A stretch of 64,000 nucleotides of DNA from Rhizobium leguminosarum (lineage in GTDB: Bacteria > Pseudomonadota > Alphaproteobacteria > Rhizobiales > Rhizobiaceae). Each line of letters opens with the position of its first letter. Position 1 is the first letter of the stretch. The stretch lies in assembly GCF_017876795.1 (NCBI RefSeq), contig NZ_JAGIOR010000001.1, positions 2,258,501 to 2,322,500 of the forward strand. Direction: 5' to 3'. The notes below the pieces were generated by a model, which saw only the letters and a list, made by a program, of their open reading frames with translations, made no database searches and was not told where the DNA came from. Shown here piece after piece: positions 12,447 to 57,556 of the stretch. The translations under genes and the position numbers were made by a program.

Positions 12447-13059
12447 CGGTTTTGTCAATAAGCGGTTAATTTCAAAGGAGAGTTGTCGCAAAGGGAGCCA
12501 AAATTTAAGAAGGCAGGAGCTGGGGGCGCTCCTGCCTTCTTGCTCTTTGCTTCCGCCGGCAAACGCAGGGCCGAGGCCCAAGCCGGAGGGTATTTGCAAA
12601 GGCACCCTTGCGAAGCGGCGCCGGGGGTAGGGATGGTGCTTCGCTCGGGGATCGCTTTGTTGAGATCGAACCTATTGCGGTGCGGCGGCTTGTTCAAATT
12701 ACAAAAAAATAATAATTGCCGAAAACGTCGGTTCTGGAGGCGCCGCAGCAAAGGCTCGGCAGGCGCCGCCGGGATAGGGCTGCACAATCGACGCACGAGA
12801 TAAGTGTCTGTTTTAGAACGTTTTAATTCAACTCTGCTAAAGGTCGTCGCTCTAGTCGAGACATTTGTAACGGTGGAATTTCAGTGCTTGAAAGACAATA
12901 ATGTCGCACCCTGTCGCAGGGGGCGATAACGCGTTTTTGATGGGATAAACAGCGCGGATGGCACTGGGTGCACTTGCCTGTGAATAGCGGGTTTTCATGA
13001 CAAGTTTCGTGGCATGGGGCGGCAAAGCAGCTTATATGGAGGTTGGCCAAGAGGTATAA
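12447..13059. other. Long intergenic region before dnaG, with a strong hairpin
   Basis: This 613-base gap has no convincing gene. A perfect 13-base inverted repeat lies at 12508-12520 and 12528-12540 (loop TGGGGGC). On the minus strand it is followed by TTAAATTTT, so it could end a minus-strand small RNA started in the dnaG leader. A T/A-rich tract lies near 12700-12720. The rest shows nothing I can name. Confidence 0.4.
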
Positions 13060-15066
13060 ATGCGCTTTTCCAACACCTTTCTCGATGATATCCGCGACCG
13101 CGTTCCGATTTCGAACGTGATCGCGCGCCGCGTGAGCTGGGACAAGCGCAAGACCAACGTGTCGCGCGGCGATTACTGGGCTTGCTGCCCGTTCCACGGC
13201 GAGAAGTCGCCGAGCTTCCACTGCGAGGACCGGAAAGGCCGCTATCACTGCTTCGGCTGCGGCGTCACCGGCGACCATTTTCGCTTCCTCACTGAGCTGG
13301 AAGGCCTGAGTTTTCCCGAGGCGGTGCAGCAGATCGCCGATATGGCCGGCGTTCCGATGCCGCTTGCCGATCCTGTGATGGAGAAGCGCGAGAAGGAGCG
13401 CGGCTCGCTGATCGACGTCATGGAAACGGCGACGCAATTTTTCCAGGATCAATTGCAGACGGCGAATGGGGCGAGGGCGCGCGCCTATCTGCGCGACCGT
13501 GGGCTGACCGGGCGCACCATTGAGACCTTCCGTCTCGGCTATGCGCCTGACAGCCGCAATGCGCTGAAGGAATTTCTCGCCGGCAAGGGCGTACTGAAAG
13601 AGCAGATCGAGGCCTGCGGCCTGGTCGTTCATGAAAACGTGCCGGTGTCCTACGATCGCTTTCGCGACCGCATCATGTTCCCGATCCTCTCGTCGCGGGA
13701 AAAGGTGATCGCTTTCGGCGGTCGCGCCATGTCGGCCGATGCGCCGGCGAAATATCTGAACTCCAACGAAACGGAGCTCTTCCACAAGGGCAACGTCCTT
13801 TACAATTTCGCCCGCGCGCGCCGCGCGATCCAGGGTCCGGGTCGCAGCGATGCTCAGGATGACAATGCGACCGGCACCATCATCGCCGTCGAAGGCTATA
13901 TGGACGTGATCGCGCTCTATCAGGCGGGCATCGAGAACGCCGTCGCGCCGCTCGGCACGGCGCTCACCGAAAACCAGCTCGAGCTGCTCTGGAAGATGGT
14001 GCCGCAACCGGTGCTCTGCTTCGACGGCGACGGCGCCGGCATTCGTGCCGCCAATCGCGCCGCCGAACTGGCCCTGCCGCATCTGAAGCCCGGCCGGTCC
14101 GTCCGCTTCGCGCTTCTGCCTGATGGCAAGGACCCGGACGATCTCGTGCGCGACGATGGGCGCGCACCCTTCGACAAGGTGATGAGCCAGGCGAAGCCGC
14201 TTTCGGAGATGCTGTGGAGCCGGGAGATCAACACCGGCAAGTTCGACACGCCCGAGGCGCGCGCCGAACTTGAGGCGCGGCTGAAACAGCTGGTCGCCGT
14301 CATCGCCGACGAGAATGTGCGCCGCCACTACCAGCAGGATATTCGCGACCGGCTGAACACCTTCTTCCAGCCGCAGTTCCAGAACCGCAACAATGGCGAA
14401 CGCCGCGGCTTCAACGGCAACGGCAATTCCCGGACGGGCCGCGACAATGCGGGCAAGGCAGGGCCGAAAAGCCCCAGCGTCATTTCCGACCGGCTCGCCC
14501 GCTCGGGCCCTGTGCGTGGCCACCGGGACAATACGGCGTTGCGCGAAAGCGTGCTGGCGCTGACCATCGTCAATCATCCGGCCCTGATGATCGACGATTA
14601 TGACGAGATCGCCGCGATCGACTACGACAGCCGCGAGCTGCAGCGGCTCTGGTCGGCCATGCTTGGGGCAGCCGCTGCGGTCGCCGGCCCGCATCTGACG
14701 CGCGACTATCTGACCGAACGGCTGGAATTCGAAGGCTTCGGCCCTCTCATCAAGAGCCTCGACCAGCAGGTGCGCAATGCCAGGCTCTGGACGGCGACCG
14801 AGGAGGCGGCGATGGAGGATGCGCGTGAGGGTTATCGCCAGGCGCTCGCCTTCCACAAACGGGCAAAAGCGTTGCGCCGGCAGAAGATGGAGCTCGAACG
14901 CGAGATTGCGCTGGCGACCGAAGCTGGCGACGGCGAGGCGATCGTTCAGCTGATCCGAGCCCAGCAGGAAGTGCATTTCGAAGGGGTGCGCCTTGAGAAC
15001 CAGGAGGCGATCATCGACGGCTTCGGCGTGCTTTCCGGCCGCGTCAAAGGGGCGGCGAACCACTGA
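13060..15066 (+). CDS. dnaG: DNA primase
   Basis: This primase makes RNA primers at the replication fork. The 668-residue protein has the N-terminal CHC2 zinc finger (CPFHGEKSPSFHCEDRKG, then YHCFGCG), the RNA-polymerase core with the TOPRIM motif (VEGYMDVIAL and CFDGDGAGIRAANRA), and a long C-terminal helicase-binding domain. The ATG at 13060 gives the canonical MRFSNTFLDDIRDRVPI. Its stop codon overlaps the recQ start by one base. In many proteobacteria dnaG directly precedes rpoD; here recQ, kbl, tdh and a GFA gene lie between, plus the inserted element. Confidence 0.97.
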   Translation: MRFSNTFLDDIRDRVPISNVIARRVSWDKRKTNVSRGDYWACCPFHGEKSPSFHCEDRKGRYHCFGCGVTGDHFRFLTELEGLSFPEAVQQIADMAGVPMPLADPVMEKREKERGSLIDVMETATQFFQDQLQTANGARARAYLRDRGLTGRTIETFRLGYAPDSRNALKEFLAGKGVLKEQIEACGLVVHENVPVSYDRFRDRIMFPILSSREKVIAFGGRAMSADAPAKYLNSNETELFHKGNVLYNFARARRAIQGPGRSDAQDDNATGTIIAVEGYMDVIALYQAGIENAVAPLGTALTENQLELLWKMVPQPVLCFDGDGAGIRAANRAAELALPHLKPGRSVRFALLPDGKDPDDLVRDDGRAPFDKVMSQAKPLSEMLWSREINTGKFDTPEARAELEARLKQLVAVIADENVRRHYQQDIRDRLNTFFQPQFQNRNNGERRGFNGNGNSRTGRDNAGKAGPKSPSVISDRLARSGPVRGHRDNTALRESVLALTIVNHPALMIDDYDEIAAIDYDSRELQRLWSAMLGAAAAVAGPHLTRDYLTERLEFEGFGPLIKSLDQQVRNARLWTATEEAAMEDAREGYRQALAFHKRAKALRRQKMELEREIALATEAGDGEAIVQLIRAQQEVHFEGVRLENQEAIIDGFGVLSGRVKGAANH

Positions 15067-15548
15067 TGCCGCTGACCGAACGGAACGAACCGGGCTTTTC
15101 CGCCTCCGATGCGCTGTTTTCCGCCGGTCGCGCGCCGCTCGAAATCCTCAAGCAGGTCTACGGCTATTCCTCCTTCCGCGGCAAGCAGCAGCAGGTGGTC
15201 GAGCATGTGGTTGCCGGCGGCGATGCCGTTGTGCTCTTCCCCACCGGGGCGGGCAAATCGCTGTGCTTTCAGATTCCGGCGCTCTGCCGCGACGGCGTCG
15301 GCATCGTCGTTTCGCCGCTGATTGCGTTGATGCGCGATCAGGTGGAGGCGATGAAGCAGCTCGGCATCCGGGCCGCCGCGCTCAACTCGTCGCTGTCGCG
15401 CGAGGAGTTTATCGCGGTCCGCCGCGCGCTTTCGGTAGGTCAGCTCGATCTTCTCTACGTGACACCCGAGCGCATTCTCACCGACGGTTTCCGCGAGCTG
15501 ATCGCCAACGAAAAGATCGCGCTGTTCGCGATCGACGAGGCCCATTGT
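15066..15548 (+). pseudogene. recQ: recQ, 5' part (interrupted)
   Basis: This is the first 161 codons of the chromosomal ATP-dependent DNA helicase RecQ, starting ATG at 15066 in the dnaG stop codon. It has helicase motif 0 (YSSFRGKQQQ), Walker A (LFPTGAGKSLCFQ), motif Ia (VSPLIALMRDQV) and the start of the DEAH box (FAIDEAHC). After the Cys codon at 15546-15548 the sequence changes to element DNA; the frame runs 18 more codons and stops at 15602. The rest of the gene resumes at 24028. A truncated 178-residue product lacking motifs III-VI could still be made. Confidence 0.95.
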
Positions 15549-15589
15549 TTTCCCGTATTCACGGTTTGGCCTCTAAACACAAGGTATCA
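15548..15589 (+). repeat. Left terminal inverted repeat (bipartite)
   Basis: Block 1 is TTTTCCCGTAT (15548-15558) and block 2 is AAACACAAGGTATCA (15575-15589), separated by 16 bases. Both recur inverted at the right end, block 1 exactly and block 2 with one mismatch. The first T may belong to the recQ Cys codon. Confidence 0.8.
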
Positions 15590-15884
15590 GCGATCCCATT
15601 GAATCCGCAAGTGGTTTTATCATATGCCGGGCTTTAACTGGCCGCATACTCCTAAAGCATCCGCCGACCAGGCGGATTCCGTCTTGGGTATACGAGCCGT
15701 TCGGACAGCGACCGCTAGAGTCTGGCAGTCCGTTCGGCACGGATACAAAAGATGTCGGGCGATAGCCCGTCAGTTTCATATCGCAAAGCGAGATGCTTGG
15801 CTTTAGCTTCCTCACTCTGCCGACGAACACAATCAGACCACCGACTGCCATCAACGACAAACAGCTCCCAATTGCCTCATTCAT
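15573..15884 (-). CDS. Uncharacterised 103-residue protein coupled to the element recQ
   Basis: The ATG overlaps the stop of the element recQ in an ATGA arrangement, suggesting translational coupling. The product begins MNEAIGSCLSLMAVGGLIVF, a possible membrane segment, followed by a basic stretch; five Cys lie along the chain. I recognise no family. The 3' end of the frame overlaps block 2 of the left inverted repeat, so it is either a true small gene or chance read-through into the element end. Confidence is modest because no coding signal beyond the coupled start is visible. Confidence 0.4.
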   Translation of the reverse strand: MNEAIGSCLSLMAVGGLIVFVGRVRKLKPSISLCDMKLTGYRPTSFVSVPNGLPDSSGRCPNGSYTQDGIRLVGGCFRSMRPVKARHMIKPLADSMGSLIPCV

Positions 15885-17737
15885 TCCGCGTCCGAAATGA
15901 TTTCCATAAACCGGTGCCCGTATCGTTCGAGCTTGGTCGCACCGACGCCGGAGATCGACAGCATTTCCCGATCTGACGTCGGCCGCTCGGTGGCGAAGGC
16001 AATCAGCGTGGTATCTGGGAAAATCACATAAGGAGCGACTCCGAGTTCCTTGGCCATCGCCATCCGTTCGGCTCGCATCGCCTGGAAGAGCTGTTCGTCG
16101 CGACCAGACAGACCTGCAACTCGTGGCGCTCTTTGCGTGCGAGATTTGTCGTTCTTGCTAATTTTCTCGCGGTGATCCTTACGCAGGACAACGTTGATTT
16201 CTTTCTTGAAGACCGCGCGAGCCGACTCATCGAGCTTGATGGCTCCGAATTCGTCATGTGCGACCGATATGAAGGAATGGGCGAGCAGCTGTCTGAAGAC
16301 CGATTGCCAGGTGGTGGCCGGTAGGTCCCTGCCTGCGCTGAAGACCGGCATCTCTGTGTGACCGAACTTCGACGTGCGGTCGGTGACCTTGCCGACCAGA
16401 ACGTCAATCAGGTGAGCTACGCCGAAACGCTCGCCGGTTCGATAAACGGCCGCCAAAGCCTTGATGCAAGCTTCCGTTCCGTCCCAAGTTTCGACCGGCT
16501 GATTACAGGTGTCGCAATTGCCGCATCGCGCGGACGCCGCCTCGCCGAAATGGCCAAGTATTGCTTTTCGACGGCATCCGGCAGTTTCACAGATGCCGAG
16601 CAGGGCATTCAGCTTGGCCCGCTCAATACGCTTGATCTCGTCTGTAGCTTCGCCTTCGTCGATCATCCGCTGACGCTGGACGATGTCGGACATCCCGTAG
16701 ATCATGAATGCCTCAGACGGGAGGCCATCGCGACCAGCGCGTCCGGTCTCCTGATAATAGGCCTCCACCGAGGAGGGGAGGTCGACGTGGGCGACATAGC
16801 GAACGTTTGGCTTGTTGATGCCCATCCCGAAGGCGACGGTCGCGACCAGGCAAAGGTCTTCTTCCAGACGGAAGGCATCCTGGTTGGCTGCCTTCTCGTT
16901 CGGGTCCATCTTCGCATGGTAGGCCTTGGCCTTGATGCCGTGCTCGTTCAGCCAGTCGGCGGTCTCTTCGACCTTTTTCCGTGAGAGGCAATAGACGATC
17001 CCGCTCGATCCCTCATGTCTCTTCAGGAATCGGAGAAGCTGATTGCGGGCATTGTCTCGCTCGACGATCTCATAGGATATGTTGGGGCGGTCAAAGCTGT
17101 CCATGTAGACGGCAGCGTCGTCCAGGTCCAGCTGTCGGATGATATCGGTCCGCGTGTGGGCGTCGGCTGTCGCGGTCAAGGCGATGCGCGGCACACCCGG
17201 ATAAAGCTCCTTGAGCTTTCCGAGCCCAAGGTAATCTTTCCGGAAATTATGTCCCCAGGAGCTAACGCAATGACATTCATCGATTGCGATCAGGGAGATC
17301 GGCACCGTCCCGAACAGATCGGCGAACCCCGGCATGACGACACGTTCCGGTGTCACATATAGAAGCTTGATCTTACCAGCTCGTAGGCTGGATCTGACAC
17401 GGCGGGATTCTTCTTCGGTCTGTTGAGACCAAAGACATTCGGCCGCCACGCCCAACGACTTCAGTTCTTCAACTTGATCTCTCATCAACGCTATTAGCGG
17501 CGAGATGACAATAGTCGTCCCTGGAAGGCAAACCCCAGGTATCTGGAAGCACAGTGACTTACCCTTGCCCGTTGGGAAAAGCACAAGGGCGTCGCCGCCC
17601 TCCATAACGTGACGAATCACGCCTGCCTGTTCTCCCCGGAAGCTGTCGTAACCCCATATGCTCTTCAGCACGCCTTCGGGAGACTGACGGTTATCAAAGA
17701 GGGCGGAGGATGCGGAACTATTGCTGGCAGCAGACAT
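15881..17737 (-). CDS. recQ: Element-borne RecQ helicase (complete)
   Basis: This is a full-length 3'-5' DNA helicase of the RecQ family, likely able to replace the interrupted host enzyme in repair and recombination. From ATG 17737 (MSAASNSSASSALFDNRQ) it has 618 residues; an in-frame extension to 17812 is less likely. Visible parts are Walker A (FPTGKGKSLCFQ), a DECH box in place of DEAH (AIDECHCVSSWGHNFR), motif VI ([14 protein letters not shown]), the zinc-binding Cys set (CRRKAILGHF, CGNCDTC), the RQC winged helix, and a C-terminal HRDC-like end (LSISGVGATKLERYG). It aligns closely with the host fragments, so it is of alphaproteobacterial type, but its codons at the insertion point differ. 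Confidence 0.93.
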   Translation of the reverse strand: MSAASNSSASSALFDNRQSPEGVLKSIWGYDSFRGEQAGVIRHVMEGGDALVLFPTGKGKSLCFQIPGVCLPGTTIVISPLIALMRDQVEELKSLGVAAECLWSQQTEEESRRVRSSLRAGKIKLLYVTPERVVMPGFADLFGTVPISLIAIDECHCVSSWGHNFRKDYLGLGKLKELYPGVPRIALTATADAHTRTDIIRQLDLDDAAVYMDSFDRPNISYEIVERDNARNQLLRFLKRHEGSSGIVYCLSRKKVEETADWLNEHGIKAKAYHAKMDPNEKAANQDAFRLEEDLCLVATVAFGMGINKPNVRYVAHVDLPSSVEAYYQETGRAGRDGLPSEAFMIYGMSDIVQRQRMIDEGEATDEIKRIERAKLNALLGICETAGCRRKAILGHFGEAASARCGNCDTCNQPVETWDGTEACIKALAAVYRTGERFGVAHLIDVLVGKVTDRTSKFGHTEMPVFSAGRDLPATTWQSVFRQLLAHSFISVAHDEFGAIKLDESARAVFKKEINVVLRKDHREKISKNDKSRTQRAPRVAGLSGRDEQLFQAMRAERMAMAKELGVAPYVIFPDTTLIAFATERPTSDREMLSISGVGATKLERYGHRFMEIISDAE

Positions 17738-17916
17738 CGTCAGACACCCTGCGACGGGCGTCTGGGCCGCTGACGCTGTAAACCAAGGAATTTCATCGTG
17801 CCTCATTACCATGATTCGCTATGTGTTCACCCGGTGAAGCTGAGGTTTCCATGCTTCTTGACATAGGTCAGGCATTCAAAGAATGCTTTGCCATGCTGAT
17901 GGGGGGACGTTGGCCG

Positions 17917-18492
17917 ATGTCGCTTAAGCGAACTGTCGTGTTTATGCTAACCGCCATGGTTTTCAGCGTCACGGTTGGCGCTGCACCCGCATTTGCTGAG
18001 AACCCGTCGCGCGACAAATGCACCTGCGACCTCGAAAAGGGCGACCCGCCAGAAAATGGCGCCTGGGTCCAGAACGCGACGTCCTGCTGGTCGACCGAAA
18101 TTCGAGAGCGGCAATGGTGCGACATCACCGTCCAGAGCCTCGCGACCGGCGCCGGGCAGACCTCCGTCGTGCTGGAGGTGCTCGGACAAGCACGCGACCC
18201 GGCTTCGCTGGTAGCGGCCATGCAGGACCGCTTCCAGCAATTCGCCGCTACCGCCAGTCGGAGCGATACCGGCCTGGATATCAATCGGGCCCGCGAGGTG
18301 GTCCCGGGCATCTTGAAAGCAAATGACGATGTCATCCAACGCTGTGTCGATGCCGCAACCAAACGAAAGCGCGGCTTTCGGCTCGAAGGCAGAGACACGC
18401 TCATGTGCCAGGTTAGCGAGGTCAGCGGATGGCTTCGGGTGGAATTCCAAGTCGGCGAAGCAAGGGTCGCCTACATGATCGGCTCTCCGTGA
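17917..18492 (+). CDS. Uncharacterised exported protein
   Basis: I do not recognise the family. The ATG at 17917, after GGGGGGACG, gives a classic Sec signal peptide (MSLKRTVVFMLTAMVFSVTV, cleavage after AFA). A longer frame from 17821 is less likely. The mature chain of about 165 residues has six Cys, including a CTC motif near its start, and no membrane segment, so it should be periplasmic with disulfides. It is divergent from the element recQ and only 6 bases before the next gene, so the two probably form an operon. Confidence 0.6.
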   Translation: MSLKRTVVFMLTAMVFSVTVGAAPAFAENPSRDKCTCDLEKGDPPENGAWVQNATSCWSTEIRERQWCDITVQSLATGAGQTSVVLEVLGQARDPASLVAAMQDRFQQFAATASRSDTGLDINRAREVVPGILKANDDVIQRCVDAATKRKRGFRLEGRDTLMCQVSEVSGWLRVEFQVGEARVAYMIGSP

Positions 18493-18498
18493 GGACCC

Positions 18499-18999
18499 AT
18501 GGCTGACCTCAAAAAATTTGCGCTGTGGGTTGGGCTGGCAGTTGCGGGAGCGGTGGTCACGGTCTGGGTCCCCGATACCTACAGCTGGATTTTGGCTCAG
18601 TTCAAGCCGACGCCAACAATCAAGATCGACTTCCAGGCAACGAACGCCTGCGGGGGCGGTAGCCTCACCGACTTGAAACGGCACTTCGATAATCAATCCG
18701 TTCGGCTGGAATGGGGTGCTGATCGGCTGGTCATCTGCGATCCGGATGACCTGCAGACCAATGCCGTCAACATCGCTGGCGACATCGCCCGCAAGTTTCC
18801 CGGCTGCTTGGACTACCGATCCGAGTCCTTGCGCCTGATGAGGGCGAGCGCTGCCGTTTGCTCTATGGGTTCGAGGAACATTTTTATCTGCGATGGGGAA
18901 AAGGGTTCTGTTTCGCCGGGGCTAACGGCACTCGGCAGCCAATCAATGCCCGTGACCGAGTGCTTGGCAGCAACTCTCCAGAAGTTCGGGTTCGAGTAG
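18499..18999 (+). CDS. Uncharacterised membrane-anchored protein
   Basis: The 166-residue product begins MADLKKFALWVGLAVAGAVV, a single N-terminal membrane anchor. A mostly hydrophilic domain with six Cys (NACGGGSL, VICDPDD, FPGCLD, AVCSMG, FICDGEKG, TECLAA) follows, and it probably faces the periplasm. It follows the exported protein gene by 6 bases. The shared Cys-rich, exported character suggests the two products work together at the envelope. No family recognised. Confidence 0.6.
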   Translation: MADLKKFALWVGLAVAGAVVTVWVPDTYSWILAQFKPTPTIKIDFQATNACGGGSLTDLKRHFDNQSVRLEWGADRLVICDPDDLQTNAVNIAGDIARKFPGCLDYRSESLRLMRASAAVCSMGSRNIFICDGEKGSVSPGLTALGSQSMPVTECLAATLQKFGFE

Positions 19000-19111
19000 A
19001 AATCGGGGCGTCGCGTACCCTTGCGAATGGGCAGAACCCATCTCCAGGCCAAAACATTGCGGGAGCGAAATCCGTGCCTTACCTCTGCAGCAGAAACAGG
19101 GGAGTACGGTG

Positions 19112-19459
19112 ATGAAGACAAAAGCAGATTGGCGCGAAATCGGTTTTGATCAGGGCGTTTTGGCCGGTAATGCCGACATGTATGCGGCTTGCGATTTCGG
19201 ATCGCATGAGAACAATCTGGCGCAAGGCCACGCGCTTCTCGGCGGAGAATATGCCTTGGTAACAAGCAAGTATCGCGATTTTCCCGATCACGATTGCTGC
19301 GCTGCCTGGATGGCTGGTGTCATCGAAGGTTCTACCAGCGTCGGCGCTCGGATGGGCTATACGACGGGAACACCAGACCTGGCTTCTGGTATCGAGGGGG
19401 CCATGCAGCTTCATTTGATGATCGTCAGAGATACTCGACCGGCCAGTGCCACCAATTGA
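19112..19459 (+). CDS. Uncharacterised 115-residue protein
   Basis: The ATG at 19112 is preferred over a GTG at 19109 because GGGGAG lies 8 bases upstream. The product is soluble, Cys-containing (YAACDFG, HDCCAAWMAG) and rich in Gly, with repeated Gly-Ala helices (DQGVLAGNADMYA, WMAGVIEGSTSVG, GIEGAMQLHL). No family is recognised. It lies 110 bases after the membrane-anchored gene on the same strand. Confidence 0.5.
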   Translation: MKTKADWREIGFDQGVLAGNADMYAACDFGSHENNLAQGHALLGGEYALVTSKYRDFPDHDCCAAWMAGVIEGSTSVGARMGYTTGTPDLASGIEGAMQLHLMIVRDTRPASATN

Positions 19460-19938
19460 ACGAGACGAACACGGCGTTGGCGAAGGTCCGATAAGGCTCA
19501 AGAGACCTGAAATTAAATTTCTCGGCTCTCGGAACGGTGGCGGCTGCGGCGTCGACAATACTGTCAGACACCGAGAGGTCAGGGGGTGGCAGTCAGACCT
19601 CTACTTTCCGATTTAGGAAACATTTCCTTGCGCGAAATTTTGTGGCAAGGAAATGTCTGAAAAAATATAAGTATTGCGCTTTGTTGTCTCGGAAGCATGG
19701 TCGTTTAAAAATAGGTTTATCAATTATATTGTTGAGTTAATTTGTATAATTTAAATAACCTTTAGTTTAAAATCGTGTTATCACTCGGTTTTTATCGCTG
19801 TATTTCGGAAAATATACATTAAAATACGCTCAGAAATTTGTTTCAATGGCCTAGATATATCATGTGTTGCCGATATTATTTCCTGTTCTATAGTATTTTC
19901 ATCGACGGTCCGGCGATCTGACCGTCTCGTAGTAAGCC
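19460..19938. other. Low-GC intergenic tract with inverted repeat
   Basis: No gene is visible in these 479 bases. From about 19600 to 19920 base composition falls well below the surroundings, with long A/T runs. A perfect 12-base inverted repeat, ACATTTCCTTGC (19620-19631) and GCAAGGAAATGT (19645-19656), opens the tract. A weaker repeat GAGGTC/GACCTC lies just before it (about 19575-19600). It could be a joint between two acquired segments, a promoter region for the next gene, or an old element end. Confidence 0.4.
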
Positions 19939-20340
19939 ATGGAGGCGGCAATCGCTAACATTCAGTTCGACAATATTGAAGGCGACATTCACGTCTATTC
20001 ATCCTTTGATGCCGGACCGGACGTCATCGGATTTGGCCTTGATACTTTGGCTGAGGCGATCAGTCGGGTTCGGGAGGACAATCATTTCGAGATCGAGTCC
20101 GTCTTCGAAGACATGCAGGCTAAATCCCTGCCTGGATGCCAGATCACCTTTGAGATTGATGAGGTGGGCCAACAGAGAGGTGTCCTGGACCTCAAAGTAG
20201 TAGTCGACGGCCATCAATTCGATCTGGGCAGCTATTTCGTTTTCGCCGAGGGAAACGGGATGACCGGATTGCGGTCGAATGCGGCTATCCGAGAGAAAAG
20301 GGCGTTGAGCGCATTCGATGGCGTCGATTGCCCGTCGTAA
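19939..20340 (+). CDS. Uncharacterised 133-residue soluble protein
   Basis: The product begins MEAAIANIQFDNIEGDIHVY. It is acidic, has no signal or membrane segment and alternates predicted strands and helices; no family is recognised. It is the first gene after the low-GC tract and lies 116 bases before the next cargo gene. The start is the only ATG in the area; the preceding bases give no strong ribosome site. Confidence 0.45.
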   Translation: MEAAIANIQFDNIEGDIHVYSSFDAGPDVIGFGLDTLAEAISRVREDNHFEIESVFEDMQAKSLPGCQITFEIDEVGQQRGVLDLKVVVDGHQFDLGSYFVFAEGNGMTGLRSNAAIREKRALSAFDGVDCPS

Positions 20341-20456
20341 TACGCCGGACGGTCTTGGCCCCAAAAGCGAGGCGCGACAATCGTCGTGGCTACCGAAACG
20401 TTACAGGCGCCAATGCCTTCCACAATAATCACGGTTAAAATCAAGAACGGACCGCA

Positions 20457-21623
20457 ATGCGCATCCATTTCAACGATACCAAGTTTGTACGTCACCTGGG
20501 AAAGCAACTGACCAGAGAGGTCCGTTCGTGGGGCGATGAAATCTCTCTAAAAGAAGCGAACCGGATTATATCCAGAGCGTTCGGGTATGAGAGCTATGAT
20601 GAACTTCACAAGCTTGTTGGCTTTGTCGATCCATCAGAACCTGACAAATTCTTATCTCCCGAAGAGAAAGTGCGGCGGTTCACGCAATACGTGGACGTAC
20701 TGGCCGACAATGATTTTTCTCCTGAAGAAGCGATTGGTCTCGTGACGAAGCTCCGGTCGGGATATTGGTGGGGCTTTGGGCGAGAGACTGTAGCAGCCCT
20801 CGTGGAGCCGGAAATCGCTGCTTCGCCGATCAAAATGCAATTCAGGAACCCGCAAGTTGTCACTCGCTTTTATCGGACGTTCAAACGTGCGCTCAGGCAC
20901 GCTGATGTGACGGTCCCATTTGGCATCCGCAAGCTGATGGCGAAGGTTTTCGGGCACGATTCGTATGTGCAGTTTATGGCTTGCGCGGGTCATGGCGTTC
21001 CGACGCCCTCAGACTTCTACGTTTCCCCGGAGGAGCTGGACGAACGGATCGAGGCATATTTGCGCGTACTGAAGGAAGCTGGCCTCTCTGATGACCAAGC
21101 GAATAGCGTTCTACATAGTGCGGGTGCCGAAGGGTGGTGGCAGCTGAAGCAGCTTCAACGGAGAGGGGACCCTCGGCAAGAGGATTTCGCTGATCGTATC
21201 GAGGGAACGGGCACGCCCACCTGGCGACCGAACGGCACCGAAAACTCGGTTATTCACCGTTTGCCCGCTCGTCCAGTTCAATACGCGTATGTGATGCTCG
21301 AATTTGACGATCCGTATGACGAAGCTCACCTCTGCGCCGTGTTGCGCAACGGGCAACAGTTTCTTGGATATTGCGACGACGTCCTTGGGGCGTTTCTCGA
21401 CAAGGTCGATTATGAGCTTCGTGCCGAAGTCGCGTCTATCTACCGGGAAATCCTCACGATGCCGGACACCATGGCGGAATTCTTGATCCTGCGGGAGCTT
21501 GGGAAGCAGCGGGTCTCTGGGCTGAACTTCTTAAGCAATAAGTACCGGGGATCGTTCGAGAACTACGCTGGCTTCCTCCAGCAAGGAGGCAAGCAGCAAT
21601 TCCAGACCGTCCTGCATGCTTGA
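20457..21623 (+). CDS. Protein with two glyoxalase-related helical domains
   Basis: This is a 388-residue soluble protein of unknown role. Two stretches resemble each other and the small helical domain annotated as glyoxalase-related (PF20066 type). Near residues 13-52 it reads LTREVRSWGDEISLKEANRI then FGYESYDELHKL. Near residues 142-178 it reads TFKRALRHADVTVPFGIRKL then FGHDSYVQFMAC. Between and after these are acidic helical regions (FLSPEEKVRRF, YVSPEELDERI), which also look duplicated. Such domains occur in mobile-element genes without proven enzyme activity, so the name should not be read as glyoxalase function. Confidence 0.55.
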   Translation: MRIHFNDTKFVRHLGKQLTREVRSWGDEISLKEANRIISRAFGYESYDELHKLVGFVDPSEPDKFLSPEEKVRRFTQYVDVLADNDFSPEEAIGLVTKLRSGYWWGFGRETVAALVEPEIAASPIKMQFRNPQVVTRFYRTFKRALRHADVTVPFGIRKLMAKVFGHDSYVQFMACAGHGVPTPSDFYVSPEELDERIEAYLRVLKEAGLSDDQANSVLHSAGAEGWWQLKQLQRRGDPRQEDFADRIEGTGTPTWRPNGTENSVIHRLPARPVQYAYVMLEFDDPYDEAHLCAVLRNGQQFLGYCDDVLGAFLDKVDYELRAEVASIYREILTMPDTMAEFLILRELGKQRVSGLNFLSNKYRGSFENYAGFLQQGGKQQFQTVLHA

Positions 21624-21701
21624 CAGGACGAACAGCGAGGGCGCCGCAGGTGATCCACCAACGGCTCCGCCGTCCGCTCTCTCGTGCATAGATCAGTGGC
21701 G

Positions 21702-22790
21702 ATGACCAAACCGACCATTCACTGGAAGACCGTCTGGTACCACGGCACGCGCACCCATATCGTCACCTTTTCGGCCGTGTCCGATGCTGAGCAGGGCGAA
21801 ATCGAAGCGGCTGCCGATGGAGAAGGCTACGAGCGCGACGGGGAATTCTGGACGCCGCCCGCTGGCCCGAATGACTTCTTTGAAATCGCGCGGCTTAAGG
21901 GCTTCGATCTTGAATTCGGGCGAGAGGATGAGGACGGACCTCTTAATCTCCATCGCCTTTACCCTACCGATGAGACCCGCAATCGACTGGAAGCGACCCC
22001 GGATTTTACGCTCTGGAAGTTGGCTGGATATTGTCCGGTCCAGGCCGAGAGATGGGTCCTGGCCAGACTTCGAAACGAGCAGTTCTTTAGCCTTGTCGAT
22101 CTCAATATCCGCATCAGCGCCTTGATCGAGGACCTCAATACCCGAACTATGCGGCGGTATGGCAAATCTCGACGCGCCTTGTTCGATGAAGTTGAGCGCT
22201 CTGAGCTCAAGCCGCTGCCTTCAACGCCGTTTGAGTATGCGGAATGGAAGACCGCCAAGGTCCATCCCGATTACCATATCGAGGTCGAGAAGACCTTCTA
22301 TTCCGTGCCGCATGGACTGATCGGAAAGCGGGTAGATGTCAGGCTAACGTATCGGACTGTCGAGATCTTTTTTGACCACAGACGTGTGGCCAGCCATATC
22401 CGGAGTTCGCAGCGCTCAGGCCACGTCACCGTCAATCAACACATGCCCAAGGCGCACCAGCGCTACGCAAACACGACACCCCACACGTTACGCCGGGAAG
22501 CAGCGAAGGTTGGGGCCAATACGGCGACTTTTATCGAACGTCTGCTCAGCGACCGCCCACATCCCGAACAGGGCTACCGGTCCGCTCAAGGCGTTCTCTC
22601 CCTGGCGCGCCGCTACCAATCCGACCGGCTGGAGCGGGCTTGCGAACGGGCGCTGATCATCAACGCACTGAGCTATTCGTCTGTTGCCAACATTCTCAGA
22701 TCTGGTCTCGATCAGGCTCCGGCCATGAGCGAGGCCGTGAAGCCGGCGCCGCCGCACGGCAATATCCGCGGCAAAACCTACTACCAATGA
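21702..22790 (+). pseudogene. istA: Chimeric, 5'-deleted IS21-family transposase (istA)
   Basis: From about residue 112 (codons near 22035) the frame is a clear C-terminal IstA: AERWVLARLRNEQFFSLVDL, the RRALFDE and EYAEWK motifs, YHIEVEKTFYSVPHGLIGKR and HPEQGYRSAQGVL. The N-terminal helix-turn-helix and most of the DDE domain are missing. They are replaced by about 110 residues of unrelated sequence (begins MTKPTIHWKTVWYHGTRTHI) fused in frame. The product cannot be an active transposase. The unrelated N-part may be the remains of another cargo gene joined by a deletion. Confidence 0.85.
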
Positions 22791-22802
22791 AGAGGACATC
22801 AG

Positions 22803-23579
22803 ATGCTGACACATCCGACACTGGAGCAGATGAACACGCTTGGTCTTGCCGGCATGGCAACGGCCTATCGCGAGCTTATCGAACAAGCTCATGGAAATGA
22901 CCTTAGCTTCGACGAACGACTGGGGTTGATGCTTGACCGGGAGATCGCCGTAAGAACTGACCGCCGGCTGACAAACCGGCTCGCCACCGCAAAACTTCGG
23001 TTCGCCAATGCTTCGATCGAAGACATCGATTTTGGATCCCATCGCGGCCTGGACCGCCGTAACGTCCTATCTCTGGCGCAAGGTGCATGGCTGAAGGCGA
23101 ACGAGAACCTGATCCTGACCGGCCAGACAGGGACCGGCAAGACGTGGATTGCTTGTGCTTTTGCACGCCAAGCGGCCCGCCTCGACTATTCGGTCCTCTA
23201 CGTTCGTATGCCGCGGTTGTTTGAGGACCTCGCGCTTGCCAGGCTGGACGGGCGCTTTCCGCGCCTCATCGACAAGCTTGCACGGGTTCACCTCCTGGTG
23301 CTCGATGATTGGGGAACCCACACCTTGAACGACCGGCAGCGCCTTGATCTGCTAGAGATATTCGAGGAGCGATATCGACGAAAGTCGACCCTGATCACCG
23401 CTCAACTTCCCGTGGCTGCCTGGCATGAGATGATTGGAGAGGCCACTTTAGCTGACGCAATCTTAGACCGTATTGTTCATAACGCACACCGCATAACGCT
23501 CGAAGGCGACAGCATGCGGAAGCGGAAAACACCAATGCTCTTGACCGGCGCCGAAATAAACGAAATCAATCACCCCTAA
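22803..23579 (+). CDS. istB: IS21-family ATP-binding helper (istB)
   Basis: This is the AAA+ helper ATPase of IS21-type transposition, 258 residues and apparently intact. It has Walker A ([11 protein letters not shown]), Walker B ([10 protein letters not shown]) and the family start [20 protein letters not shown]. It follows the istA relic by 12 bases with a GAGGA ribosome site. Without a working IstA it has no transposition partner here, though it could act with IS21 copies elsewhere. Confidence 0.93.
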
Positions 23580-23613
23580 CAGCAACTAGGCAGGCGGAAT
23601 TCGATCGAACCCG

Positions 23614-23680
23614 CTGTCCGCGACTTAGCGAAATGCCTGTCCGCGACTTGCTGAAATGGCTGTCCCGATTCACCGAAATC
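23614..23680 (+). repeat. IS21-type terminal repeats
   Basis: Three direct repeats with a 23-base period begin CTGTCCGCGACTT (23614), CTGTCCGCGACTT (23637) and CTGTCCCGATTCAC (23660), each ending GAAAT. They are the multiple transposase-binding repeats of an IS21-family right end; the IS probably ends near 23685. The matching left end is missing, removed with the 5' part of istA. Confidence 0.75.
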
Positions 23681-23683
23681 CGC

Positions 23684-23890
23684 AGTGACATCCCTGTTGC
23701 CGTCAGTCACGAACTCTTTCATCCAGATGGCGTGTTCATTGTCAGAGCTTGCCAGCCAGCCGAAGAATCTTCGGGCACCTGCAGTTTTGACACCGGAGCC
23801 GACCATGTCGCCAAATCTGTCGGCCAATTCACATTTCAGGTCTGTCTTAATCTCTTCCCAAGTCGGTATGTCCGCAAGCGCAGCTGGCAT
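23684..23890 (-). pseudogene. 5' stub of an unidentified gene cut by IS21
   Basis: On the minus strand a frame starts at 23890 after a good ribosome site (GGAAGAG) and reads MPAALADIPTWEEIKTDLKC onward for about 68 codons, then enters the IS21 end repeats. The stub is soluble and helical (FFGWLASSDNEHAIWMKEFV). I recognise no family. It shows that the IS interrupted a gene of the element. Confidence 0.5.
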
Positions 23891-23989
23891 TGACTCTTCC
23901 TATCGTGAAGGTATAGGGTGCTCTCGTAATTGTAGGTAACTAATCAACTGATTCTATTTCCAAAAAGTTACTTTTTTTAGCGCCCTATT

Positions 23990-24020
23990 TGATACCTTTT
24001 GTTTATGCGATACGGGAAAA
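23990..24020 (-). repeat. Right terminal inverted repeat (bipartite)
   Basis: Block 2 (TGATACCTTTTGTTT, 23990-24004) and block 1 (ATACGGGAAAA, 24010-24020) are the inverted partners of the left end. Here the blocks are 5 bases apart, against 16 at the left, a difference of about one helical turn. Seven extra bases (TGAATTT, 24021-24027) separate block 1 from recQ. Confidence 0.8.
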
Positions 24021-24027
24021 TGAATTT

Positions 24028-25410
24028 GTCTCGCAATGGGGCCATGATTTCCGGCCGGAATATCGCGCGCTCGGCCGGCTCGGCGAACAATATCCCGGCG
24101 TGCCGAGGGTGGCGCTGACGGCGACGGCCGATCCGCATACGCGCGACGACATTATCGAGCGGCTGGGGCTCGAGGCTGCCGAGATCTTCACCACCAGCTT
24201 CGACCGTCCGAACATCGCTTACGAAATCGTCGAGCGCGACCAGCCGCGTCAGCAGCTGTTGCGGTTTCTGTCCGGCCACAAGGGAAACAGCGGCATCGTC
24301 TATTGCCTGTCGCGCGCCAAGGTCGAGGATACGGTCGAATGGCTGAACGGGCAGGGCGTGCGCGCACTTGCCTACCATGCCGGCATGGACCGGGCGGTTC
24401 GCGACGCCAATCAGGATGCCTTCCTGAAAGAAGAAAACCTCTGCCTGGTCGCCACCGTCGCCTTCGGCATGGGCATCGACAAGCCGAATGTGCGTTATGT
24501 CGCTCATCTCGACCTGCCGGGTTCGGTGGAGGCCTATTATCAGGAGACCGGGCGTGCGGGCCGTGACGGCCTGCCGTCCGAGGTCTGGATGGCTTATGGC
24601 ATGGCCGACGTCATCCAGCGCGGCCGGATGATCGACGAAGGCAGTGCTGCCGCGGAGATCAAGCGGGTCGAGCGCGCCAAGCTCAATGCATTGCTGGCGA
24701 TCTGCGAGACCGCGTCCTGCCGCAGGCAGGCGATCCTTGCGCATTTCGGCGAGGCGCATGCGGGCCAATGCGGCAATTGCGACACCTGCCTGAAGCCGGT
24801 CGAGACCTGGGAGGGCACGGAAGCGGCGGTCAAGGCGCTGGCCGCAATCTACCGTACTGGCGAGCGCTTCGGTGCCGGCCATGTCGTCGACGTGCTCGTC
24901 GGCAATGTCAACGAAAAGACCGAGCGTTTCGGCCATGTCGATATGCCGGTCTTCGGCGCCGGCAAGGATATTCCGTCGCGCGTCTGGCAGTCGGTCTTCC
25001 GCCAGCTGCTCGCCATGGGGTTGGTCCGTGTCGATCACGAGGCTTATGGGGCGCTGAAGCTGGAGCCGGAGGCGCGGGCCGTCTTCAAGCACGAGCGGCA
25101 GGTGTTCTTCCGCAAAGACCGCCCGGCCTCCGAGCGGCGCACGAAGAAGGTGGAACGCAGCGAACGCAAATCGGGACTGTCAGGCGCCGACGGTACGCTG
25201 TTCGAGGCGTTGAGGGCCGAGCGCATGGCGATCGCGAAATCGCTCGGCGTGCCGCCCTATGTCGTCTTTCCCGATACGACGCTGATCGCCTTTGCCACCG
25301 AGAAGCCGCGGAGCCGCAAGGAATTGCTCGCCATATCGGGCGTCGGGCAGGCGAAGCTCGAGCGTTACGGCGACGCCTTCCTCGAGATCATCCTGGCGCA
25401 GGATGGCTGA
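24028..25410 (+). pseudogene. recQ: recQ, 3' part (interrupted)
   Basis: This is the remainder of chromosomal RecQ from [16 protein letters not shown] to the stop codon. It has helicase motifs III-VI ([43 protein letters not shown]), zinc-binding Cys ([17 protein letters not shown]), the RQC winged helix and an HRDC-like end ([15 protein letters not shown]). The frame is open back into the element's right end to a TTG at 23989, so a helicase fragment without ATP-binding motifs could be made. No further damage is visible, which implies a recent insertion. Confidence 0.95.
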
Positions 25411-46568: not shown

Positions 46569-46715
46569 GAATTGCTACCCCTCCCGAGAACAACGATATC
46601 CATTAATAAGTACCACAACTTCTATCGAAACGCAGGTGGCTCGACGATCAGGCTGATCATGCGCGTATCAATCCGCCGAAACCGCCACAGGCGAGGGACA
46701 TCTTCACGCCGTTAA

Positions 46716-47237
46716 ATGCGCCTCTCCGAACTCGTGGGCCTTGATCACAGTGCAGTCACCATCGGCACAGGTGCGCACATCCGGTGTTTTGGGAAGGGGC
46801 GCAAGGAACGCACTACGCCGATCACCAGAATGCTCAATGCTACGCTCAAGGCCTGGTTGGATGAGCCGCCGGTTGGGAACGGCAGTGCTCTTTTCCCGAC
46901 CGTTCGCGGCGGGCGAATGAGCCCTGATGCAGTCCAGTATCTTCTGGCCAAATACGTTTTGGCAGCATCGAAGGGCTGCCCGTCGTTACGATTAAAGCGG
47001 ATATCACCCCATGTCCTTCGACATAGCGCGGCGATGGAGTTATTGGATGCTGGTGTGGACAGCACGGTGATCTCATTGTGGCTCGGCCATGAGTCCACGC
47101 GGTCCACGCAGCCGTACTTGCATGCCCACCTGGCAATCAAGGAAGCCGCTCTAGCCAAGATCGACCCGTTCAATAAACAATCGCCTGGCAGGTTCAGCGC
47201 TGGCGATGAGCTATTGGCGTTTCTCGACAAACTTTGA
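46716..47237 (+). pseudogene. Tyrosine recombinase, C-terminal fragment
   Basis: The frame is the catalytic half of a site-specific tyrosine recombinase. It has the first Arg region (MRLSELVGLDHSAV), RKERTTPITRML, the HxLRHSAAM box (ISPHVLRHSAAMELLDAGVD), LGHESTRSTQPYLHAH with the Tyr nucleophile, and a short tail. The N-terminal DNA-binding domain is missing; upstream sequence does not continue the family in any frame. This type often occurs in sets of three recombinase genes on plasmids and transposons. It is inactive here. Confidence 0.85.
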
Positions 47238-56221: not shown

Positions 56222-57556
56222 ATGGCAAAGAAGAAATTGACGGACATTAGCGTTGAAGCGCTGAAAAAGACCGGTTCGCGATATGACACGATGGATAGCC
56301 ACACGCCGGGTTTCGGCGTGCGTGTCGGGACCAGTGGGAAGAAGACCTTCATCCTCTACACGCGATTCCCCGGTTCGTCGGCACCCACGCGGCGGGAGCT
56401 TGGTGAGTATCCGATAATGTCTTTAGCTGAGGCCCGTGATAAGGCTCACGATTGGCAAAAGCTGATAAAACAGGGCATTGATCCAAAGTACGCCGAAGAG
56501 CGTGATCGGGCAGAACAGGCTCGTAAGCGGATCAACACCTTCGCCGCCGTGGTGGGGGACTACCTTCGCTACCTTCCGACCCGCGATCGCAACCGGCATT
56601 CGGAACAGGATGAGCGCGAAATACGTCGCGAACTGCTGGACGATGCGCGAAACCCGTGGGTCAAAAAAGCGGTGGCTGATATCACTGATACCGAAATCGG
56701 CGAACTGATCGCGGCAATCCGAGACCGGCCCGCTCCGGGACAAGCTTACAACGCACTAGGTCACGTTAAGTCGATCTTCGCTTGGGCTATGTGGCCGGAG
56801 CGTCGCTCGGGCTATGGGCTGAGAGATAATCCGACTCGGGACATGGCACCTAAGCATTTTGGGCTTTCGAAGACGGTGCGAACCCGTGTCTTCAGTGACG
56901 ACGAGATTGTGGCGTACTGGAATGCAACGTATCGGATGAAAGGGCCGCTTGGCCCATACTTCAGAATGCTGATGTTGACGGGTCAGCGGAAAGACGAAGT
57001 GTCCGGCGCGCGCCGTCGGGAATTCGACGCCTCAAATGCAATCTGGACGGTGCCTGAAGAACGCTTCAAGTCGGGGGTTGATCACCTTGTCCCTATGACG
57101 GAAACGGTCGCGACTTTGATCGCAGCAATGCCAACGTACAGCGCAGGTGACTGCATCTTTTCGTTCACGTCGGGTGCGAAGCCAATCAATGGTTTCAGTC
57201 GCGCCAAGGCAGCGCTTCACGACGCCATGCTTCTAGAGATGCAGCGCGTCAACGATCAGGCCGAATTGCCTGATTGGACATTGCACGATGTCCGGCGCAC
57301 GGTCAGAACTCGACTTTCTGGTCTTCGAGTCAACGCCGACGTGGCGGAAATGGTCATCGGTCACGGGAAGAAGGGACTCGAGCGCGTCTATAATCAACAC
57401 CAGTACGCCGACGAAATGCGGGACGCGCTCACGAAGTGGGAATCGGCGCTGCGGCGGCTTCGGATGTTGCCAAAGCTTGACCGGTTTCGAGCAAAGAAAA
57501 TGCATATAAGTCGTGCAAAACCGACGTCAAACGTGGTCGTTTTGAGAGCGTCCTGA
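56222..57556 (+). CDS. int: Phage-type tyrosine integrase
   Basis: This 444-residue integrase of the P4/tRNA-targeting type catalyses insertion at and excision from the tRNA gene. The N-terminal DUF4102-like domain reads LTDISVEALKKTGSRYDTMD, then GFGVRVGTSGKKTFILYTRF. A SAM-like core-binding domain follows at about residues 100-200. The catalytic domain has Arg in LTGQRKDEVSGARRREFD, LPDWTLHDVRRTVRTRLSGL (HxxR) and VIGHGKKGLERVYNQHQYAD with the Tyr nucleophile. It is adjacent to attL, is read away from it, and has a terminator behind it. Confidence 0.95.
   Translation: MAKKKLTDISVEALKKTGSRYDTMDSHTPGFGVRVGTSGKKTFILYTRFPGSSAPTRRELGEYPIMSLAEARDKAHDWQKLIKQGIDPKYAEERDRAEQARKRINTFAAVVGDYLRYLPTRDRNRHSEQDEREIRRELLDDARNPWVKKAVADITDTEIGELIAAIRDRPAPGQAYNALGHVKSIFAWAMWPERRSGYGLRDNPTRDMAPKHFGLSKTVRTRVFSDDEIVAYWNATYRMKGPLGPYFRMLMLTGQRKDEVSGARRREFDASNAIWTVPEERFKSGVDHLVPMTETVATLIAAMPTYSAGDCIFSFTSGAKPINGFSRAKAALHDAMLLEMQRVNDQAELPDWTLHDVRRTVRTRLSGLRVNADVAEMVIGHGKKGLERVYNQHQYADEMRDALTKWESALRRLRMLPKLDRFRAKKMHISRAKPTSNVVVLRAS

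Follow-up and report, generated by a model that had tools for sequence, protein, structure and literature searches.

The host recQ gene in the analysed stretch of Rhizobium leguminosarum DNA (64,000 nucleotides, hereafter the window) is split at positions 15547/24027 by an insert of 8,473 bp (8.47 kb; 15548-24020), which itself encodes a complete RecQ (15881-17737). The original prediction, that an element breaks recQ and carries a complete replacement, is thus borne out, and its proposal that a host function is taken away by the insertion and given back by the inserted DNA agrees with the window sequence, the same arrangement being present in six further genomes. The best explanation of these data, to which a probability of about 0.72 is assigned, is an island that targets recQ, would rescue the host with a replacement recQ, and appears to protect itself by a changed insertion site in that replacement.

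As read from the junctions, integration would be the work of recombinases encoded near one end of the island, which would cut recQ within a conserved stretch; the left junction would keep the 6-nt spacer of the host, and the right one would have a different 6 nt. Host recQ is split in this way, the complete RecQ of a separate lineage that the island carries would supply the lost helicase, and the replacement, having a different insertion site, would escape targeting. Insertion would then be almost cost-free, and precise excision would return the host gene; loss of the recombinases (as in the window) or erosion of the host gene (as in genome G069) would make the replacement the only recQ and lock it in.

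Anatomy of the window insert

From their protein sequences, we take the gene directly before host recQ (15066) to be dnaG and those after 25410 to be kbl, tdh, and rpoD. The recQ parts and the insert consist of the following features.

15066..15547, plus strand: N-terminal part of host recQ with the DEAD domain, running to the attB spacer CCATTG (15542-15547) and stopping inside ...DEAHC
15548..15589: left end of the element, tip TTTTCCCGTAT and inner repeat TAAACACAAGGTATCA
15881..17737, minus strand: replacement recQ, 618 codons, insertion-site motif rewritten to DECHCVSSWGHNFRKDY
17821..18492, plus strand: cargo ORF without family match, real start probably further in
18499..18999, plus strand: cargo ORF without family match
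19109..19459, plus strand: cargo ORF without family match, homologue in the Pararhizobium arenae island (39% identical)
19939..20340, plus strand: cargo ORF without family match
20457..21623, plus strand: homologue of gene D, which adjoins the recombinase module in full-size islands (37-38% over 226-259 aa)
22046..23686, plus strand: IS21-family fragment in which istA keeps its 3' part, istB (22803-23579) is intact, and repeats of the right end lie at 23614-23659
23687..23890, minus strand: gene C stump, first 68 residues, stopping precisely at the start of the IS21 fragment; 56% (G795) and 50% (P. arenae) identical
23990..24020: right end of the element, inner repeat and tip ATACGGGAAAA
24021..24026: right spacer TGAATT, 6 nt, different from the host spacer
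24027..25410, plus strand: C-terminal part of host recQ to its stop, open, dN/dS 0.053 against the nearest intact relative

The tips form inverted repeats (15548-15558 and 24010-24020), accompanied by an inner inverted repeat of 16 nt with 94% complementarity (15574-15589 and 23990-24005), and about 270 nt of the left end align with the corresponding ends in P. arenae and G795 at 77-78% DNA identity. The gene C stump at the right end beside the IS21 fragment indicates that the window copy formerly had gene C and lost it; no recombinase is left in this copy, where the ends and the 68-residue stump of one module gene remain. The window insert is a decayed member of a Rhizobiaceae family of site-specific islands.

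Several other origins were considered and rejected. The IS21 piece, 98.5% identical to IS21 from three R. rhizogenes plasmids, is not the mover, as it lies inside the insert without its left part and does not border recQ. A phage origin was dismissed because PHROGs matches were confined to recombinases A and B of other islands, with 0/5 window ORFs matching. A defence function was set aside since in PADLOC the element RecQ matched RecQ-like models, mostly DpdF (up to 798.5 bits), as any RecQ would; a further five window ORFs run against PADLOC had no match.

Some further observations concern the surroundings of the insert. At 21684-22790 an ORF joins about 120 unrelated residues to the C-terminal part of istA of IS21, probably a chance fusion at the truncated IS21 end. 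Two more phage-integrase matches, at 46713-47126 (with an internal stop) and 56960-57406, lie in the lower-G+C half of the window and possibly belong to another island. Outside the window, C1, C2, C4, and C5 of the same genome (G000) contain many near-identical copies of phage-integrase genes arranged in tandem (products of about 417, 326, 396, and 300 aa), which resemble RIT elements (recombinase in trio), and 50 integrase matches were counted in G000 versus 6-13 in five relatives searched.

Recurrence at one place in recQ and the recombination module

A RecQ match was found in 148/148 genomes of the genus (weakest best E value 6.6e-260), of which nine were examined closely. In five of these nine, namely the window genome (G000), Rhizobium sp. 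CCGE 510 (G070), 16-488-2b (G105), and the 'Rhizobiales bacterium' isolates AFS066368 (G128) and AFS032198 (G135), recQ is interrupted at that very position, and the genome holds another recQ that is complete. A pattern scan of a species-representative genome collection for the rewritten motif returned 17 stretches, 16 of them in bacteria of Rhizobiales, including two new split cases, Ensifer sp. IC4062 (G541) and P. arenae (G554). The remaining match, in a Woesearchaeota MAG contig (L074), was set aside as chance. Seven genomes, with Rhizobium, Ensifer, and Pararhizobium among them, accordingly have recQ cut at one place, each with a complete replacement recQ, and six of the seven retain a tyrosine-recombinase module, the exception being the window copy. 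The distance from one recQ half to the other is 51.6 kb (G135), 54.4 kb (G128), 64.1 kb (G105), and 8.5 kb (window), these four being the islands uninterrupted by contig ends.

When 394 genomes of the family were scanned with an attR pattern at up to 2 mismatches, 26 matched: two exactly (window and P. arenae), 23 with intact recQ, and one with an eighth insertion (G795). The left end of the latter is 77% identical to that of the window over 273 nt, and its module is degenerate, the 599-aa gene C abutting an FtsH fragment. The exact rewritten motif was not found in G795, nor was a replacement recQ in the 1.23 of its 6.9 Mb that were fetched, mostly contig ends. Either a replacement with a deviating motif lies in another part of this genome, or the insertion is a genuine instance of an unrescued recQ. 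Copies of the element without recQ would speak against the original prediction; all seven fully checked insertions carry the gene, with G795 as the doubtful case.

The target lies in the codons between helicase motifs II and III, GAGGC[CCATTG]CGTCTCG, and the empty site is intact in 25/29 loci (L007-L035), the four without it (L007-L010) being element-type recQs. The left junctions read GCCCATTG, GCGCATTG or GCGCACTG, followed by TTTTCCCG, TTTTGACG, TTTTGGCG or TTTTCACG, with ATTTGACG in G105, and the right junctions read ...AAAA, then six bases, then CGTCTCGCAATGG or a variant. These six bases are TGAATT in the window, CCACAG in G070, GCACTG in G105, CCACGC in G128, CGGATG in G135, CCATGC in G541, and CGAATT in G554. 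The right spacer differs from the left in six of the eight insertions; G105 has GCACTG at both junctions, and in G795 the spacer is gone. A left junction with the spacer of the host and a right junction with a different one is the footprint of tyrosine recombinases with non-identical 6-nt spacers (PMC10214605, PMC5385486). Three of the four right spacers of G070, G105, G128, and G541 start with CCA like host spacers, while the window/P. arenae lineage shares YGAATT in both members, which suggests that there the right spacer may be borne by the element rather than acquired at each hop.

Three large conserved genes recur in full-size islands, A with about 530 aa and B and C with about 800 aa each, together with D. 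A and B match phage integrases weakly, below cut-off in Pfam and with E values of 2.3e-6 and 4.3e-5 to PHROG 216 (G105). By eye, A shows HRLR..GH..Y and B shows HMLRR or HMFRR..H..Y in the full-size islands, and both are absent from the window copy; these residues correspond to the R..H-x-x-R..H..Y set of tyrosine recombinases. C and D gave no match in Pfam, nor did C and the window homologue of D in PHROGs, and NCBIfam and PHROGs name no Gin protein. The G105, G128, G135, and G541 islands read outward, in the order A, B, C, D from attR, and P. arenae has C, B, A from attR; the D product has 363-401 aa (G105, G128), and an ORF of 159-213 aa sits between A and B. A to C would carry out the integration.

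The modules are highly divergent. G135 A and B are 36-40% and C is 31-32% identical to the G070, G105, and G128 counterparts, and P. arenae A, B, and C are 27-32% identical to those of G135, the same place in recQ being used nonetheless. Since G135 RecQ is 80-85% identical to the RecQs of G070, G105, and G128 against 31-40% for the module, gene and module look reshuffled. A profile of A had strong matches in 4/148 genus genomes, all four with split recQ, and four weak ones elsewhere, with no match in the genome of the window; in the order it matched 2/397 genomes (G460, G474). In a protein collection 22 relatives of A and 14 of C were found at the set cut-offs (about 8,000 candidates scored each), and in five cases a module homologue and a rewritten RecQ share the longest-contig size (23715, 44746, 30054, 132629, and 23156). 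No conjugation genes were found with Pfam in 20 cargo ORFs; the three islands from which these were drawn have, counting the module genes, 130 non-overlapping ORFs of 120 aa or more.

Five islands also contain a gene for an FtsH-like AAA/M41 protein of about 620 aa, which fell short of the FtsH cut-off in the copies scanned. It occupies the end away from the module in these five, and in P. arenae it is located beside the module (loci L048:16915-18780, L051, L054, L063, L093, and L096).

The replacement RecQ, its lineage and its altered site

The original prediction had described a full RecQ with ATPase, zinc, RQC, and HRDC parts, and this description was confirmed: DEAD, Helicase_C, RecQ_Zn_bind, RQC, and HRDC domains all exceed their Pfam cut-offs, and the protein scores 728.6 bits against TIGR01389 recQ (equivalog cut-off 640.2). 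GKGKS, DECH, GRAGRDG, and a four-cysteine zinc motif can be recognized in this putative helicase. The predicted gene limits, 15881..17737, also hold: an ORF extended to 17812 would add 25 codons, and the closest homologue in the database, P0001 with 618 aa, begins at the position corresponding to 17737. The protein had further been called closely related to that of the host; the relation is real, and the closeness is not that of a recent copy, as identity is 67% in the C part and 55% in the N part, which together with a separate clade rules out recent duplication of host recQ.

A phylogeny, the check suggested along with the original prediction, places the element gene inside RecQ, in a clade sister to rhizobial chromosomal RecQs. 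In this tree (126 rows, motif masked, quick method, with very long outgroup branches and a root for drawing only) 68 rewritten RecQs form one clade (SH-aLRT 99), adjoined by 46 ordinary RecQs (74 as one branch side), both groups together receiving 100. The element gene of Ensifer IC4062 groups with those of Rhizobium, so element genes seem to move between genera. Among element or sole genes, dN/dS was 0.041-0.062 in five of seven pairs (dS >0.8, unsaturated) and 0.084 in a close pair, the seventh being saturated, and control medians were 0.05-0.11 in 77 pairs sampled from chromosomal C parts. The rewritten recQ is under strong purifying selection, with dN/dS like that of chromosomal recQ.

The ordinary 17-residue motif at the insertion site is present in 57/58 ordinary and outgroup RecQs (46 of Rhizobiaceae type and 12 from other alphaproteobacterial families; the 58th ends in PDY) and in 0/69 rewritten rows, which read DE[ACS]HC[VI]S[SFTVA]WG[HN]NFRK[DE]Y; the solved RecQ 4q47 has the ordinary motif as well. 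The best 120 homologues listed for the window RecQ comprise 68 ordinary and 52 rewritten proteins. In DNA, the 24-nt core departs from the attB consensus at 0-5 positions among the 33 ordinary genes and at 0-7 among the 12 outgroup genes, compared with 7-11 for the 8 element genes and 8-12 for the 9 sole genes, and the serine codon is TCN in 33/33 ordinary rhizobial genes and AGY in 17/17 rewritten ones, with AGC in 2/12 outgroups. Of columns invariant in the 58, those changed in at least half of rewritten rows number 5/16 in the motif versus 7/123 elsewhere (p=0.005), or 3/16 versus 4/123 at a stricter cut (p=0.033), and the motif region is the top 17-residue window for change. The enrichment at the site is significant but moderate, and the changes are shared by descent in one clade and are not independent events. 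With its site changed in this way, the replacement recQ should not be an insertion target and would be immune.

Between motifs II and III lies an aromatic-rich loop through which ATP hydrolysis is coupled to the binding of DNA (PMC5490261). By our own reading of the motif, the rewritten stretch appears to be this loop; it retains tryptophan, phenylalanine, and arginine, and histidine is replaced by asparagine in 44/69 rows, a change that might lower activity.

Seventeen genomes with a rewritten gene (16 and that of the window) were compared, many of them drafts: seven have a split host recQ, one a scar (G069), and nine no trace of the ordinary gene, and an intact ordinary recQ was found in none of the 17. 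The rewritten recQ is the only recQ found in ten genomes (the nine and G069), the nine including Neorhizobium, Hoeflea, Ciceribacter, and Endobacterium. In G069 (CF122), another of the nine genus genomes examined closely, an element-type recQ, 91% identical to that of the window, adjoins dnaG, and the host gene is a short C-terminal scar. Short relics resembling the island left end and cargo flank this sole recQ between dnaG and kbl (L036:10943-11034 and 12950-14585), and they are read as a stage of domestication. From its domains, the selection on it, and the lack of another recQ, the replacement probably supplies the lost helicase.

It could be argued that the RecQ serves the element, perhaps when the element replicates or excises, and that recQ as a target is a coincidence. 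In group-2 islands recQ indeed lies near the recombinase genes, and G460 has a distant integrase A relative (27-34% identical) with no recQ in the 60 kb fetched around it. This reading is nevertheless improbable, since the rewritten gene has been retained in ten genomes where no other recQ was found, including nine that show no island traces, never stands beside an intact ordinary recQ in the 17 genomes, and has a dN/dS resembling that of chromosomal recQ.

The history of the changed motif is a separate matter. The replacement may be xenologous, a naturally divergent Rhizobiaceae RecQ lineage which spread horizontally and became island cargo, its carriers being favoured as recQ is the target; the motif would then have been different beforehand and not altered under island pressure. 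About 10 kb around each of the nine sole recQ genes showed no trace of the module, and three sole-type genomes (G540, G548, G552) share synteny for about 9-11 kb upstream, so a part of the sole group may be old and vertical; these nine genomes without island traces and a rewritten subclade (14 rows) without a known island member suggest that the different motif may predate the island. Against this, all 12 other alphaproteobacterial families sampled retain the ordinary motif (one with PDY), which makes the departure peculiar to the rewritten lineage and strongest at the insertion site. Xenologous replacement is a possibility at less than even odds; it departs from the best explanation in history and not in mechanism, and the odds of the two overlap.

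Predicted excision, known systems and significance

Under the best explanation, an island that inserts and rescues would have an inexpensive way out. When the flanks were joined at the recombination site, an open host recQ resulted in seven of eight insertions, and six of these show the motif exactly; one arm is decayed in G541, and G795 gave no open recQ. The C halves of host recQ are open in 7/7 examined. Relaxation of the broken halves was rejected as a general feature, because only G070, G541, and G554 exceed the 95% range of controls with similar dS; G000, G105, G128, and G135 lie within it, so that most broken host halves are without decay. Precise excision should consequently give recQ back and be harmless, and the replacement would lower the cost of insertion rather than punish loss.

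These data bear on the claim of the original prediction that loss of the element is costly and that it acts as an addiction module, holding the cell because loss of the element removes its only RecQ. The element RecQ is the only complete one found in the window genome and in G069, and the window copy has no recombinase to excise with. The joined flanks, by which precise loss would restore the gene, and the open C halves speak against the claim; moreover, recQ is not known to be essential in the bacteria studied. Addiction is very unlikely as a general account, and a cost of loss would arise only where excision is impossible (window) or the host gene is gone (G069).

By comparison with the descriptions of GInt and SE, the island family appears to be a new variant of GInt/SE/Tn554-like islands. 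Tn554 inserts into radC, a DNA-repair-type gene, and is not known to bring a replacement copy of its target. The recQ islands resemble it in site specificity, a 6-bp footprint, and inverted terminal sequences (PMC10214605). GInt islands (ginABCD; Bardaji et al. 2017, PMC5385486) are likewise large, with 2.5 to 70 kb of cargo, and have at one end a set of three recombinase-like genes followed by one more gene; they insert site-specifically in protein genes or close to them, with imperfect repeats at the junctions and a 6-nt staggered exchange. In GInt ginABCD lies at the 5' end and reads inward with a small fourth product, whereas the G105, G128, G135, and G541 islands read outward as A-D, P. 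arenae has C, B, A from attR, the D product is 363-401 aa (G105, G128), and the ORF of 159-213 aa sits between A and B. Bardaji et al. state that insertion probably does not fully inactivate the target and place two P. aeruginosa GInts at the end of a duplicated ribonucleotide reductase gene; no target replacement was noticed in their account. No ginC-ginD blocks were found in Alphaproteobacteria, according to PMC10214605.

SE (2023, PMC10214605) resemble the recQ islands in their target specificity, in having inverted repeats at the termini, and in pairing a recombinase of ordinary size with a large one. In SE one junction has the host 6 bp and the other a different 6 bp, with a strand bias; among the recQ islands six of the eight insertions show such unlike spacers. 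They consist of intA-tfp-intB-srap between imperfect inverted repeats, while in the recQ islands repeats are present, A and B match phage integrases weakly, and C and D are without match; SE differ as well in being described in Gammaproteobacteria only, with a median of 15.7 kb and no target-gene replacement noticed in that account. In open-licence PMC literature no report of recQ-inserting islands with a replacement recQ was found, which is weak evidence of absence.

Elements that repair the gene they enter include ICE SXT in prfC, prophage e14 in icd, and tRNA-gene islands. These supply the missing gene end at the junction, while the recQ island brings a whole separate gene with a changed site. 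A further likeness is offered by synthetic cleave-and-rescue and home-and-rescue drives, in which the target is destroyed and a recoded resistant copy is supplied; such drives are engineered, eukaryotic, and nuclease-based, while the recQ island is a natural bacterial integrative element whose insertion would be reversible by excision. It may tentatively be proposed, at less than even odds, that the islands represent a natural insert-and-rescue drive, in which a recQ lineage made insertion-proof under island pressure and carried by divergent modules hitting one place in recQ would gradually replace ordinary Rhizobiaceae recQ, the genomes with only the rewritten gene being the end state.

Many site-specific islands spare their hosts by using gene ends or tRNA genes. 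The elements of PMC8138268 and PMC5385486 likewise choose host-sparing sites. The recQ islands enter the middle of a conserved repair gene and bring a complete separate substitute with a changed insertion site. For annotation this is a warning, as a 'broken' recQ beside such an island does not necessarily denote a recQ-minus strain. It also raises the testable question of whether any target becomes affordable given an insertion-proof copy, and whether allele replacement of a core gene may thereby be driven.
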